DNA from: Acidobacteriota bacterium
Lineage (GTDB): Bacteria > Actinomycetota > Acidimicrobiia > Spongiisociales > UBA5794
Assembly: GCA_022562055.1 (NCBI GenBank)
Contig: JADFQA010000020.1
Location: 1-60,777, forward strand
DNA length: 60,777 nucleotides
Reading direction: 5' to 3'
In this document: piece after piece, positions 30,055-48,620 of the stretch
Layout of the letters: every line of letters begins with the position of its first letter
How positions within the stretch are numbered: the first letter of the stretch is position 1
Notes under the pieces: model-generated
Database searches by the model: none
Seen by the model: the letters and a program-made list of their open reading frames with translations, nothing else
Told to the model about the DNA's origin: nothing
Translations under genes and position numbers: made by a program

Positions 30055-30513
30055 ATGGCGACAACAGTTGGTGCAGCCGCACCCTCCTTCACCCTCACCG
30101 CTCCAGACAAGTCTGAGGTAAGGCTCAGCGACTTCAGAGGCAAGAACACACTTGTCGTCTTCATTCCGTTTGCGTTCTCGGGTATCTGTACCGGCGAGCT
30201 CTGCACCATTCGTGACAGCCTCGCGGCCCTCAACGATCTCGACACACAAGTCGTCGTGATTACGTGCGACTCGTTTTTCACCAACGGCGCCTGGAGCGAG
30301 AAGAACGAGTTCACGTTCCCTGTCCTTTCTGACTACTGGCCACACGGAGTGGTCAGCAAAGAGTACGGGGTGTTCAACGAAGACGCCGGCGTTGCAAACC
30401 GGTACACATTCATTCTTGATGCTGACGGGATCGTCCGCGAGATCGTAAACACTGACTCGCTCGGCGAACGACGCGAGTTCGCTCTCTACACTGAGGCCCT
30501 CGCCAAGCTCTAA
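30055..30513 (+). CDS. AhpE-type peroxiredoxin
   Basis: A 152-residue thioredoxin-fold peroxidase. The peroxidatic Cys is in the block PFAFSGICTGELC, the AhpE/BCP-like P-x3-S/T-x2-C pattern; a second Cys lies three residues on, and another in VITCDSF. It reduces hydroperoxides, probably recycled by mycothiol/mycoredoxin or thioredoxin in this phylum. GAGAGGCG lies upstream of the ATG, and TACCAT (30011-30016) may be the -10. It is probably a single-gene unit; the palindromic element at 30533 starts 19 nt after the stop. Confidence 0.88.
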   Translation: MATTVGAAAPSFTLTAPDKSEVRLSDFRGKNTLVVFIPFAFSGICTGELCTIRDSLAALNDLDTQVVVITCDSFFTNGAWSEKNEFTFPVLSDYWPHGVVSKEYGVFNEDAGVANRYTFILDADGIVREIVNTDSLGERREFALYTEALAKL

Positions 30514-30532
30514 GCACGTCAACACGCGCCTT

Positions 30533-30578
30533 CCGCACGATTGGCGTCCAACTCGGCAAGCGCGGGATTGGACGCCAA
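30533..30578. repeat. Palindromic repeat element, related to the one in purH
   Basis: The core arms are TTGGCGTCCAA (30541-30551) and TTGGACGCCAA (30568-30578), separated by 16 nt. The flank CCGCACGATTGG (30533-30544) and the segment GATTGGACGCCA (30566-30577) both recur exactly in the purH palindrome (47992-48003 and 47998-48009). Shared 12-mers together with the same palindromic design suggest one repeat family. It could also act as the peroxiredoxin gene terminator, but has no U-tract. Confidence 0.6.
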
Positions 30579-30661
30579 GTTCGCGACGGGGTGGTCCATC
30601 CTGCGCTTTCCTGGGCACGCCGGGCCGACAAAGCTAGCCTTGACCACGGAAAGGACCCTGA

Positions 30662-31855
30662 ATGGATTTCGGATTTAGCGAACGCTGCGAGGGATTCCGC
30701 GAGGAGTTGCTTGCGTTCATGGACGACCACGTGTATGGGGCTGAGAAGGCGAACTTCGCCGAGATGGCGGCGGAAGATCCGTACTCGGGGACTTCTGTCG
30801 TTTCGGCCATCAAAGAGAAGGCTAAAACGCAAGGACTATGGAACCTCTTCCTCCCCGACGACAAGTGGGGTCCAGGCCTCTCGAACGTCGACTACGCACC
30901 ACTTGCCGAGATCATGGGGCGATCAATCGAGATCGCACCTGAAGCGACAAACTGCGCTGCGCCCGACACCGGCAATATGGAGGTCTTGACCCATTTTGGC
31001 ACCGAGGCACAGCAGCAGGAATGGCTGATGCCCCTGCTCGCTGGTGAGATTCGGTCAGCCTTTTCAATGACCGAGCCAAGGGTCGCGAGCAGCGATCCGC
31101 GCAACCTTGAAACCACGATCGTTGCCGACGGCGACGACTTCGTCGTCAACGGGCTCAAGTGGTGGATCACCGGCGCCGCGGCAACGGATTGCAAAATCTC
31201 GATCGTGATGGGAGTCACGAACGTAGACGCACCACCAAAACAGCGTTACTCAATGATCCTCGTCCCGATGGACGCAGATGGCATGAAGATCGAGCGCACC
31301 ATGCCGGTGTTCGGTTTCGCAGAACGAGGCGGCCACTGCGAGATTTCCTACAACAACGTCCGGGTCTCCAAGACGAACATCATCGGCGAGCCCGGGACGG
31401 GCTATCAGATCGCCCAGGCCCGACTCGGCCCCGGGAGAATCCACCACTGCATGCGCGTTATCGGGGTTGCGGAGCGGGCGTTAGACATGATGAAGGAGCG
31501 TGTGAAATCACGGACCGCGTTCGGCGGGCCGCTGTCCGAAAACGCGGTCATCCAAGAATGGATTGCAGAGTCGCGGATGCGGATCGACCAGGCTCGTCTC
31601 CTTGTCATGCGCGCGGCGTGGAGAATCGACACGATGGGCAACCGGTCGGCACGGGTCGACGTGTCCGCTATCAAAGTCGTGGCCCCGAACGCGGCGCTTT
31701 GGGTCATCGACAAGGCAATTCAGGCACACGGGGGTGCCGGCATCGGCGACGACTTCGGACTGTCGCGTATGTACGCGTTTGCTCGCGCGCTGCGTATCGC
31801 CGACGGCCCCGACGAAGTACACCGAATGGTTGTCGCACGCAGCGAACTTCGATAG
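30662..31855 (+). CDS. Acyl-CoA dehydrogenase
   Basis: A 397-residue FAD-dependent acyl-CoA dehydrogenase. Landmarks: AFSMTEPRVASSDPRN at the FAD/substrate loop, FVVNGLKWWITGAA, GPGRIHHCMRVIGVAERALDMM, RTAFGGPLSENAVIQEWIAESRM and the C-terminal IQAHGGAGIGDDFGLSRMYAFARALRIADGPDEVH. The usual catalytic Glu position before GPDEVH needs alignment to confirm. Its length and the long N-terminal helix resemble the ACAD10/11-like or FadE-type subgroup acting on longer or branched substrates. GGAAAGGA precedes the ATG. It probably feeds the beta-oxidation genes seen elsewhere in the window. Confidence 0.88.
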   Translation: MDFGFSERCEGFREELLAFMDDHVYGAEKANFAEMAAEDPYSGTSVVSAIKEKAKTQGLWNLFLPDDKWGPGLSNVDYAPLAEIMGRSIEIAPEATNCAAPDTGNMEVLTHFGTEAQQQEWLMPLLAGEIRSAFSMTEPRVASSDPRNLETTIVADGDDFVVNGLKWWITGAAATDCKISIVMGVTNVDAPPKQRYSMILVPMDADGMKIERTMPVFGFAERGGHCEISYNNVRVSKTNIIGEPGTGYQIAQARLGPGRIHHCMRVIGVAERALDMMKERVKSRTAFGGPLSENAVIQEWIAESRMRIDQARLLVMRAAWRIDTMGNRSARVDVSAIKVVAPNAALWVIDKAIQAHGGAGIGDDFGLSRMYAFARALRIADGPDEVHRMVVARSELR

Positions 31856-35577: not shown

Positions 35578-35895
35578 ACTCACTCCCCTACACACACATG
35601 AATAACACCATGATAATTACGTATGAGTAATTATTATGGTGTTATTCTGGCAACTCTCCGCGCGAATGTCAACCGTGAAATTCGGTGGTAGGTGAGTAAA
35701 TTGGGGCTTTGCGCTCTGAGTGCGAGAGCGATCGGCCACGCTCCGCGCGAATCGACCGGCACCGTACTGGCGGCATCGGTCGTGGGTATGGCAGTACCGA
35801 GACCGTTGCATGTCCTCTACCATTGCCTGAGTCGATTGCTCGCAGCGCGACTGCAAGACGGCCATACTGTGATCGCTACACCGAAGGAGCATTAC
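35578..35895. other. Intergenic region between whiB and sdhC
   Basis: These 318 nt separate two divergent genes. They hold the whiB ribosome site (AGGGGAG), a (TG)n-like tract, the AT-rich dyad at 35601-35646 and the sdhC ribosome site (AAGGAG at 35884-35889). The frame of sdhC stays open upstream to 35692, but the residues there look non-coding. CATACT (35866-35871) could be an sdh -10. I see no additional gene. Confidence 0.5.
35601..35646. promoter_or_regulatory. AT-rich 20-bp dyad over the whiB promoter region
   Basis: Two 20-nt arms (35601-35620 and 35627-35646) are reverse complements except for one position that can form G-U, with a 6-nt loop. They run AATAACACCAT...TAATTAC and back. 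It is strikingly AT-rich in a GC-rich genome, begins 24 nt upstream of the whiB start and contains TATCAT/TAATTAT -10-like hexamers. An operator is more likely than a terminator, since no gene ends here. Confidence 0.6.
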
Positions 35896-46155: not shown

Positions 46156-47016
46156 CTACGCGTCTCCGAAAGCCTTTTCGGCGGCCTCAACGGTGTTTGC
46201 CAACAGCGAGGCGATTGTCATCGGGCCGACACCGCCGGGCACGGGAGTAACACCACCGGCCACCTGCGACACACCCTCAAAGTCGATATCGCCGACAAGC
46301 TTGTCGTTGACCCTGTTGGTGCCCACGTCGATCACGACCGCACCCGGCTTGACGTGCTCACGTCTCAGAAGGTTCGGGACACCGGCTGCTACCACAATGA
46401 TGTCGGCCTCCAGCGTGACCGCTGCCAGGTCGGGGGTTCGCGAGTGCGCCTGAACGACAGTGCAGTCCACCCCTTTTGTGCCGAGCATGATCGCCATCGA
46501 GCGCCCCACCAGGAACGATCGTCCGATGACAACAGCTCGTTGCCCTGTCGTTTGAATTTTGTAGTGCTTGAGGATTCGTAGGATGCCAACCGGTGTTGCA
46601 GGCCTGGGTCCCGGGCGATCGAGAACAAGAAGTCCGAGGTTGTAGGGATGTAGGCCGTCAGCATCCTTTGTAGGATCCACGGCCGCAACGGCGGCGTTTC
46701 CATCGAGACCACTGGGCAATGGTAACTGCACGATCATCCCGTCGACCCGATCATCGGCATTGAGGGCGTGGACCGCCGCGATCACGTCAGCTTGTGAGAC
46801 GTCAGACGGGAGGTTCACGTCCACCGAAATCATCCCGGCTTTGTCGGCGGCACGATGTTTGTTTCGCACGTAAATGTGTGACGCCGGGTCGTCACCCACA
46901 AGCACGGTCGCCAAACCGACGTTCTTGCCTCGCGCCTTGAGGGCTGCGACGCGTTCGGCCACCTCGGCCCGCACCACGACCGCAACGTCACGCCCCGAGA
47001 GTATCTGTGCGCTCAA
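46156..47016 (-). CDS. folD: Methylenetetrahydrofolate dehydrogenase/cyclohydrolase
   Basis: A 286-residue bifunctional enzyme. Catalytic Tyr/Lys are in SHIYVRNKHRAADKAGM. VDGMIVQLPLPSGLD and DADGLHPYN follow. The nucleotide-binding block is VVIGRSFLVGRSMAIMLG, with the C-terminal GGVTPVPGGVGPMTIASLLANT. It interconverts methylene- and formyl-tetrahydrofolate and supplies 10-formyl-THF to the PurN and PurH enzymes encoded just upstream. TTG is the start codon at 47016, overlapping the purH stop (TTGA). Confidence 0.95.
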   Translation of the reverse strand: MSAQILSGRDVAVVVRAEVAERVAALKARGKNVGLATVLVGDDPASHIYVRNKHRAADKAGMISVDVNLPSDVSQADVIAAVHALNADDRVDGMIVQLPLPSGLDGNAAVAAVDPTKDADGLHPYNLGLLVLDRPGPRPATPVGILRILKHYKIQTTGQRAVVIGRSFLVGRSMAIMLGTKGVDCTVVQAHSRTPDLAAVTLEADIIVVAAGVPNLLRREHVKPGAVVIDVGTNRVNDKLVGDIDFEGVSQVAGGVTPVPGGVGPMTIASLLANTVEAAEKAFGDA

Positions 47017-48620
47017 TGTCGAAAGTGCCTTTGGTTTGTGAAAACGAGAGAAACGCCGCGCTCGTTTGCCGCGGCAATAACCTCATGGTCGCGTTTTGAG
47101 CCGCCGGGTTCAACCACCGCGATAATGCCGGCGTCGGCTAGAACATCGAGACCGTCTCGGAACGGGAAAAACGCGTCGCTTGCGGCCACAGTCCCGATGG
47201 CTCGGTCGCCGGCTTTGACGATCGCCCGCTCGGCAGCGCCGACACGACTTTGGTCGCCCGCCCCGACACCGACCGCAGCCATGTCGCTGACAATCACGAT
47301 GGCGTTCGATTTGGTGTGTGCCGAGACGGTCCAGGCAAAACGCAGCGCTTCCATCTCGGTGGGGGTTGGCTTGCGCTCGGAAACGACTTGCCAGTGCTCC
47401 GGCAGCACACCGCCGGCGGTGGCGACCTTGTCGCGAACCTGTACCAGCACGCCACCCTCGATGCGGCGCAGGTCGAAGTCGTTCGAAGCGGGTAAAGGCG
47501 CCGTCACCACTCGCAGGTTCTTCTTGGCCGAAAGTACCGACGCGGCAGCTTCGCTCATGGCTGGCGCGATGACAACTTCAACAAATTTCGATACCAGCTT
47601 GTTTGCTGTGGCCTCGTCGAGTTCCACGTTGCATGCAACGATGCTCCCAAAAGCTGACACCGGGTCGCATGCCCACGCGGCATCCAGGGCGGCGGTCAGA
47701 GTCGCGCCCTCGGCCGCTCCGCATGCGTTCATGTGTTTCATCACCACGACGCCGGGCGCGGACAGGTCGGCAACGAGTCGCCAGGCAGCGTCAGTGTCGG
47801 CGTAGTTATTGAAGGACATTGCCTTGCCTTGGTGAATGACCGCGTCCTTCCACCAGCCGGAAGTGCCGCGTTCTGAGTAGATCGCGGCCGACTGATGCGG
47901 GTTTTCGCCGTAACGCAGAACGTCGACCCGGTCCAAAACCAGCGATATCTCCGCCGGCATTCCCCGTTCTGGCGTCCAATCGTGCGGTATCCCGCACGAT
48001 TGGACGCCAGAACGGGAGTTGGGGGCGCCAGAGTTGAACCAATGCGCAATTGCGGCGTCATATGCGGCCGTGTGGGCGAACGCCTTACGGGCGAGATCCT
48101 GGCGTTCCTCAAGTGTCGTCCCGCCAGCCTCGATGGCCGCCGCAATGCCGTCGTAATCTTGCGGGTCGGTAACCACCACGACATCAGCGTGGTTTTTTGC
48201 GGCGGCTCGAACCATCGTCGGCCCGCCAACGTCGATCTTCTCGATGATGTCATCCGGAGTGGCGTCAGGATCAGCAACGGTCGCCTCGAACGGGTAAAGA
48301 TTGCACACAACAAGATCAATCGGCGTTATCCCACGCTCCGCCAAATCGTCAACGTGCGCCTGCACCGAACGGTTCGCCAATATCGCACCATGGATTGTTG
48401 GATGGAGCGTCTTCACCCGGCCGCCGAGCATCTCGGCGGCACCGGTGACATCAGCAACGTCGACTACCACCAGACCAGCGTCTCGGAGGTGTCTTGCCGT
48501 CCCGCCCGACGATACGATCTCAACACCTGATGCAGCGAGCCGGCGTGCGAACTCGACGAGTCCGTCCTTGTCATAGACAGAGATGAGGGCCTGGCGAATG
48601 GGTTTTCTTGTCATCTTCAT
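47013..48620 (-). CDS. purH: Bifunctional purine enzyme PurH with a palindrome-encoded linker insertion
   Basis: A 535-residue protein. The IMP cyclohydrolase domain (about 1-195) has ISVYDKDGL, EIVSSGGTARHL and GGRVKTLHPTIHGAIL. The AICAR formyltransferase domain has LRYGENPHQSAAIY, VVVMKHMNACGAAEG with the catalytic Lys-His, and SDAFFPFRDGLD. It performs the last two steps of IMP synthesis using 10-formyl-THF. Residues about 202-220 (SRSGVQSCGIPHDWTPERG) are encoded by a 54-bp perfect palindrome and have no counterpart in the PurH proteins I know. They sit between the two domains, where an insertion is most tolerable. The frame stays open. Start ATG 48620 or 48614. Confidence 0.93.
   Translation of the reverse strand: MKMTRKPIRQALISVYDKDGLVEFARRLAASGVEIVSSGGTARHLRDAGLVVVDVADVTGAAEMLGGRVKTLHPTIHGAILANRSVQAHVDDLAERGITPIDLVVCNLYPFEATVADPDATPDDIIEKIDVGGPTMVRAAAKNHADVVVVTDPQDYDGIAAAIEAGGTTLEERQDLARKAFAHTAAYDAAIAHWFNSGAPNSRSGVQSCGIPHDWTPERGMPAEISLVLDRVDVLRYGENPHQSAAIYSERGTSGWWKDAVIHQGKAMSFNNYADTDAAWRLVADLSAPGVVVMKHMNACGAAEGATLTAALDAAWACDPVSAFGSIVACNVELDEATANKLVSKFVEVVIAPAMSEAAASVLSAKKNLRVVTAPLPASNDFDLRRIEGGVLVQVRDKVATAGGVLPEHWQVVSERKPTPTEMEALRFAWTVSAHTKSNAIVIVSDMAAVGVGAGDQSRVGAAERAIVKAGDRAIGTVAASDAFFPFRDGLDVLADAGIIAVVEPGGSKRDHEVIAAANERGVSLVFTNQRHFRH
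47963..48016. repeat. Perfect 54-bp palindrome inside purH
   Basis: Arms of 25 bp (47963-47987 and 47992-48016) are exact reverse complements around a 4-nt loop TATC. The length is 54 bp, i.e. 18 codons, so the purH frame is preserved. The element shares CCGCACGATTGG and GATTGGACGCCA with the intergenic palindrome at 30533-30578. A repeat family able to insert in genes, as the Rickettsia palindromic elements do, is the simplest explanation. Confidence 0.75.

Follow-up and report, generated by a model that had tools for sequence, protein, structure and literature searches.

We conclude, with a probability of about 0.8, that the stretch at positions 30533-30578 of the window (the 60,777 nucleotides of DNA analysed as a whole) represents a decayed member of a dispersed palindromic repeat family, REP-like and non-autonomous, whose copies are about 46-54 bp long and are used as landing pads by IS30-family elements. 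The repeat occurs in many copies whose two arms change together, orthologous sites differ in the presence and in the sequence of a copy, copies lie mostly at the 3' ends of genes and sometimes in frame within them, and IS30-family elements are inserted in it at a fixed position.

Results

The diverged copy spans 30533-30586 (no strand assigned), aligns to positions 3-44 of our covariance model and forms an imperfect extended stem. It lies in the intergenic gap at 30514-30661, with a peroxiredoxin (AhpC/TSA) gene upstream (30055-30513, plus strand) and an acyl-CoA dehydrogenase gene downstream (30662-31855, plus strand), both named by Pfam. The inverted 11-bp cores that the initial annotation had described after the peroxiredoxin gene are present as TTGGCGTCCAA at 30541-30551 and TTGGACGCCAA at 30568-30578, separated by a spacer of 16 nt; the core starts 27 nt past the peroxiredoxin stop codon and ends 83 nt ahead of the acyl-CoA dehydrogenase gene. 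The annotation had further reported two exact 12-mers in common with a palindrome in purH and had judged them unlikely to be chance matches. These are CCGCACGATTGG (30533-30544) and GATTGGACGCCA (30566-30577), and each occurs three times in the window, once in the diverged copy and twice in the purH palindrome, against expectations of 0.02 and 0.04, respectively. In addition, the pair TGGCGTCCAA-N6..36-TTGGACGCCA is found twice in the window, at the diverged copy and at purH, and in none of 100 shuffles, which upholds that judgement. In the source genome of the window (G000; 2.93 Mb in 83 contigs) the paired 10-mers TGGCGTCCAA/TTGGACGCCA occur seven times and their reversed control does not occur at all. 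A random frequency of the 12-mers outside any palindromic context, which would have spoken against the initial annotation, was not observed. The proposal that this stretch is a second, diverged copy of the purH palindrome is borne out, and the family is genome-wide and palindromic.

Both strands of the diverged copy fold, with z scores of -3.3 and -4.5. Within the window the covariance model matches it with E values of 0.0083 on the minus strand and 0.026 on the plus strand, compared with 1.8e-19 for the purH copy, and all other matches in the window have E values of 0.05 or worse. Because its E values are only of this order, the model alone would have missed the diverged copy in a genome-wide search. 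Its minus-strand alignment fits the model layout apart from a centre that is 4 nt shorter and two non-standard pairs. Taken together, the stretch is apparently a real but decayed member of a palindromic repeat family.

The consensus of this family reads TTCT(T/G)GCGT, followed by a variable self-complementary interior and ACGC(C/A)AGAA, and is usually 46 bp long, with a range of about 46-54 bp. In the three genomes of the genus (G000-G002; all genomes used here are drafts) TTCTGGCGTCC is mostly found in inverted pairs 43-49 bp long. The earlier suggestion of a variable architecture therefore stands in part: some copies do measure 43-49 bp and the diverged copy, with its shorter centre, is an outlier, but most copies examined are 46 bp. 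Pairing was assessed in 27 aligned copies, hand-picked from the pattern searches in the genus, the taxonomic family and the class; as many of them had been retrieved by their exact outer arms, the test is a fair one for the interior alone. In this alignment 94.0% of 567 cells are paired, 14 of 21 pairs show double changes and 123 cells have changed on both sides, and each of these three values was reached in 0 of 500 shuffles. Eight cells of the alignment have changed on one side and 34 are unpaired. A larger set of 42 46-mers from the genus has perfect 21-bp arms in 17 cases and pairs positions 18-19 in all 42. On the presumed RNA strand, G-U and A-C mismatches number 5 and 6, which is no excess of G-U in a test too small to decide the matter. 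An RNA helix would be expected to show more wobble than these 46-mers do, and we infer that the symmetry of the arms is maintained at the level of DNA.

Outside the 46-mer, pairing at the two adjoining positions exceeds that in every shuffle, while farther out both flanks have a weak, mirrored C-rich/G-rich consensus with no excess of pairing. Target-site duplications, as sought for a MITE, did not exceed shuffles at the palindrome ends in 60 flank pairs (offsets 0-7, lengths 2-9). At one site of the source genome (C25:35726-35792) an extra left half-arm lies 21 nt upstream of a 46-mer, which gives the impression that another element inserted into or next to an earlier one.

The intact copy of the window is the 54-bp palindrome in purH (47963-48016, no strand assigned; supported by the model match and by folding), which has 25-bp arms and a 4-nt loop. 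It sits within an in-frame insertion of 20 residues in the purH gene (47013-48620, minus strand). The insertion is missing in G001, G002 and six other readable relatives (two of the 11 PurH translations were out of frame and were set aside) and is located at the junction of the two enzyme domains, which we take to be the inter-domain linker of PurH. A degenerate second arm (GGGCGCCAGAG) lies beside the palindrome at 48013-48033 and creates a larger inverted pair of 67 nt; the net insertion of 60 bp may contain more than one element. Other copies also fall within genes. A citrate-synthase-like gene carries an in-frame copy in both G001 and G002, and Pfam named three ORFs at copies, which encode this citrate-synthase-like protein, an aconitase C-terminal protein and an aldehyde dehydrogenase. 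Three copies of the source genome, at C14:26819, C30:8138 and C34:236, have a second type of interior (TGACACGGCACC... and related sequences). They are 49 bp long, a length that does not suggest an IS30 footprint, and the C14 copy falls within the 3' part of the aldehyde dehydrogenase ORF.

Within the source genome, ATTGGACGCCA occurs 15 times against once for the reversed control and TTGGACGCCA has 23 matches (control, 4), seven of them unpaired; across four genomes TTCTGGCGTCC occurs 104 times against 6 for the reversed control. Of the 50 genomes from the taxonomic family, 19 contain pairs of TGGCGTCC and one contains pairs of the control pattern. Across the class, 37 of 395 genomes have a related form, TTCTTGCGT...ACGCAAGAA, against none of the 395 for its control, and this exact-arm pattern had no match in 109 sampled genomes from other classes of the phylum. 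One copy of the source genome (C6:28696) is a hybrid between the two forms. In this sample the repeat family is restricted to one class of little-known Actinomycetota, presumably the Acidimicrobiia. Twelve viral contigs match the TTCTTGCGT pattern and none matches the TTCTGGCGTCC pattern; since only 10-17 of 18-26 positions pair in these twelve, and nine of the pairing positions are fixed by the pattern, the matches look like chance and we rejected them as virus-borne copies. A literature search returned no description of this repeat family, which does not prove that it is unpublished; the table of REP counts in the RepRanger paper (PMC12306157) holds one Acidimicrobium genome.

The covariance model, built on the 27 aligned copies, detects the repeat in 33 of the 50 genomes from the taxonomic family. 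Counting both strands, positive genomes have 2 to 116 matches, corresponding to up to about 58 copies per genome; the high counts are lower bounds, because only 124-150 candidates were scored per genome, and strict filters drop weak matches. Copy number differs sharply between congeners. For example, in genus g12 the model has no match in G070 (84% complete) versus 108 in G013, and in genus g5 none in G006 (95% complete) versus 34 in G023 (both strands counted in each case). Within genera, copy number ranges from 0 to about 50 in these draft genomes, some of which are incomplete.

Differences of this kind are also seen at individual sites. Upstream of the peroxiredoxin gene a copy is present in G001 and G002 and there is none in G000; downstream of the gene, G000 has the diverged copy, and G001 and G002 have another hairpin (identified by eye). 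One orthologous gap with conserved flanks contains different perfect palindromes in G001 and G002, with 10 of 24 interior bases alike. Two rearrangement breakpoints in the G001/G002 comparison coincide with copies. At G001 C265:2338-4422 two copies bound a segment of 2 kb that holds two predicted genes, where G002 carries just one copy; elsewhere, the homology between the two genomes ends at the copy. The right part of this segment resembles DNA next to a further copy, which lies at the end of contig C89 of G002. Several orthologous sites of G001 and G002 retain a copy of the same type, and a host function would therefore explain these as well. Taken together, the differences in copy presence, interiors and counts within genera and the breakpoints speak for dispersal and recombination of the repeat over a fixed host signal, and some host use would still be compatible with them.

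The position of the copies relative to genes was determined for 63 copies of G000, G001 and G002, with gene contexts taken from our own caller based on ORFs and codon use and not from annotation; the set includes the diverged copy after the peroxiredoxin gene and three IS30-interrupted sites, and omits, for example, G002 C5, C104, C137 and C140 and nearly all TTCTTGCGT-type copies. Seven copies lie within predicted genes and 56 outside. Among the latter, a gene 3' end is no more than 60 nt away in 37 cases, 12 copies have only 5' ends at that distance and 7 have neither, so that the family is REP-like in the broad sense of many dispersed palindromes that are largely extragenic and often close to a 3' end. 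Moreover, the gene pairs that flank a copy are convergent in 23 of 47 cases, compared with 8 of the window's 49 gene pairs (p = 0.0009).

This placement favours a reading in which the palindromes are host gene-end hairpins, acting as two-way transcription ends or as protectors of mRNA 3' ends, that are kept by selection and are not mobile DNA; the other hairpin that fills the slot after the peroxiredoxin gene in G001 and G002 and the copies retained at several G001/G002 sites argue in the same direction. However, the T-run of a canonical intrinsic terminator is rare, with TTTT within 15 nt of the hairpin in just 1 of 47 gene-end strands, and the mismatches of the small test described above show no excess of G-U over A-C. 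The in-frame copies in purH and in the citrate-synthase-like gene, and the lack of any match in some congeneric drafts, likewise speak against a gene-end signal, and we consider this reading possible but doubtful. A putative host use of the dispersed repeat, as a two-way transcription end or as an mRNA 3' hairpin, would be secondary. An Rfam search of 11 loci gave no RNA family match to the repeat, and only a tRNA scored above the gathering threshold.

The initial annotation had pointed to a REP-type (RAYT) transposase as the enzyme to look for, which found no support: the Pfam domain Y1_Tnp (PF01797) was detected in none of the three genus drafts and in 1 of 60 relatives, with 5 of 14 control genomes positive, and a RAYT was set aside as mobiliser on this result for the genus. 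A transposon flanked by the arms of the repeat was not encountered among the TTCTGGCGTCC sites of four genomes in a non-exhaustive search, and the genes between or near copies at ten loci, judged by eye from their first 90 residues, appear ordinary, none of them transposase-like. The transposase that is seen with the repeat belongs to the IS30 family (NF033563, E 9.9e-85) and lies inside the palindromes, the repeat serving as its target. The assignment to this family is in keeping with an IS30-type transposase, imperfect 31-bp inverted ends beginning GGTGGTC and a short duplication.

A search with this transposase gave five matches in the genus. The three closest (73-100% identity; G000 C15, G000 C12 and G001 C170) are all inside a family palindrome and at the same position in the 46-mer, with 3-bp duplications TGC, TGC and CGC. 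When the flanks of these sites are rejoined without one copy of the duplication, they yield 46-mers with 23, 23 and 22 of 23 pairs. The other two matches (G000 C65 and C70; 50-54% identity) are outside this repeat, and that on C65 is in an unrelated short palindrome. We examined 19 IS30 loci for a link to a palindrome. The element in G038 has 10-bp arms of the TCTTGCGTGA kind beyond its ends, that in G013 a partial inverted repeat beginning CGTCTG, that in G031 a TTCTTGCGT arm solely to its left and that in G019 palindromic flanks of different sequence; the remaining loci of the 19 gave no clear link.

In addition, three solo 49-mers of the source genome (on C10, C35 and C29) differ from an occupied IS30 site by two, two and one mismatches, and the 49-mer on C10 is the exact reverse complement of that on C35, a different contig. 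As judged from sequence, the three look like footprints of IS30 excision in which both copies of the duplication were kept. At G000 C9:32036 an apparent IS30 right end is followed by half a palindrome, and the G002 counterpart has an intact palindrome; this site may be what an IS30 insertion followed by a deletion has left behind.

Since the three closest IS30 copies sit within the family palindrome, one could suppose that the palindromes derive from an IS30-family element, as miniature versions of it or as its leftover ends, and are moved by its transposase. We consider this very unlikely: the insertion sequence has its own inverted repeat, which lies inside the palindrome and is unlike the palindrome's arms, and no IS30 match at 1e-20 was obtained in G002, which contains about 57 copies, although drafts lose repeats. 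Presence of IS30 also does not correlate with that of the palindrome (IS30 is present in 11 of the 23 genomes that have palindromes and in 6 of the 14 that lack them, p = 1), a result that likewise rules against IS30 as the mobiliser of the repeat.

Discussion

Our preferred reading remains that of a dispersed, non-autonomous repeat that serves as an IS30 landing pad. New copies would most likely arise through transposition or copying by an enzyme acting in trans, and a folded DNA stage, such as a hairpin or a cruciform, may keep both arms alike. Gene 3' ends and convergent gaps would be the places where copies do least harm. IS30-family elements insert into the repeat at one fixed position with a 3-bp duplication. 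What counts against this explanation is that there is no excess of duplications at the palindrome ends, that no arm-flanked transposase was seen, that several G001/G002 sites retain a copy of one type and that the model supports the diverged copy weakly. More tentatively, we picture a family devoid of a transposase of its own, in which the arms evolve in concert at the level of DNA, a new sequence type appearing on one arm and then being copied to the other, entire interiors are swapped at orthologous sites, sites serve repeatedly as IS30 pads and 3-bp excision footprints spread with the repeat, as the identical 49-mer in opposite orientation on C10 and C35 may suggest; we hold this picture to be conceivable rather than probable. 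As for the stretch after the peroxiredoxin gene, its position 83 nt ahead of a start codon and its 11-bp dyad with a 16-nt spacer are laid out like an operator, but it is most improbable that it serves a regulator of the acyl-CoA dehydrogenase or the peroxiredoxin gene and resembles the purH palindrome by accident, given the same 10-mer pair at six other places of the genome and at none for the reversed control, the two exact 12-mers in common with the purH palindrome and the retention of the family's GC steps around the centre.

The family resembles several known repeats and differs from each. Like the GTAG-type REPs associated with RAYTs, it consists of dispersed palindromes that are mostly downstream of genes, between unidirectional and convergent genes, and occasionally in genes (PMC3733652), and REPs are also targets of insertion sequences (PMC1525189). 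In contrast to GTAG-type REPs, the copies described here are near-perfect palindromes of about 46-54 bp with a 4-nt loop, no RAYT was found in the genus, and neither end of the 27 aligned copies has an unpaired GTAG tag, the palindromes being symmetric over their full length. The CGTC REPs (Neisseria dRS3, Rickettsia RPE-4/6) share with our family the lack of a dedicated transposase and the presence of some copies in genes (PMC3733652), and CGTC is present in the arm of the genus variant. However, CGTC REPs are defined by an unpaired CGTC tag at one end, an 8-9-bp stem that begins with A-T pairs and a CCA tail (PMC3733652), whereas here CGTC is paired within a 21-bp stem and is missing from the TTCTTGCGTA and TTCTTGCGTG variants; the consulted passages of that paper do not mention Actinobacteria. 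The Rickettsia palindromic elements offer a parallel to the in-frame palindromic insertion in an enzyme gene, but they are about 150 bp long and noted for in-frame gene insertion (PMC10969869), whereas 56 of our 63 copies are extragenic. With no RAYT found, no GTAG tag and a CGTC that is paired and not universal, the family is REP-like in placement but stands apart from REPs by its structure, by the transposase that is missing and by having IS30 as its partner.

The IS30 insertions invite a similar comparison. IS30 inserts into near-palindromic hot spots and beside its own ends (PMC9333248); in our case a dispersed repeat family acts as the hot spot, and the duplication measures 3 bp and not 2. 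The five REP-targeting families named in PMC1525189 are IS3, IS110, IS4, IS256 and IS5, and a table of that paper gives 2/13 and 2/6 for IS1655, which is an IS30-family element (PMC3898611). Our family extends the list of insertion sequences that target dispersed palindromes by an IS30-family case. For bacterial palindromic repeats that lack a REP transposase, no means of spreading has been established, and this family provides a clean comparison of congeners with none and with about 50 copies, together with a swapped interior, in-frame insertions and an insertion point marked by an insertion sequence. With it one could address whether a DNA copying process or selection on a hairpin is what maintains the likeness of the arms.

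Finally, the window contains two further repeats: an AT-rich 21-bp hairpin at 35600-35647 (GAATAACACCATGATAATTAC / GTAATTATTATGGTGTTATTC) and, at 1848-1973, imperfect tandem repeats of 15-24 nt (GCCATGGAAGAAGA...).
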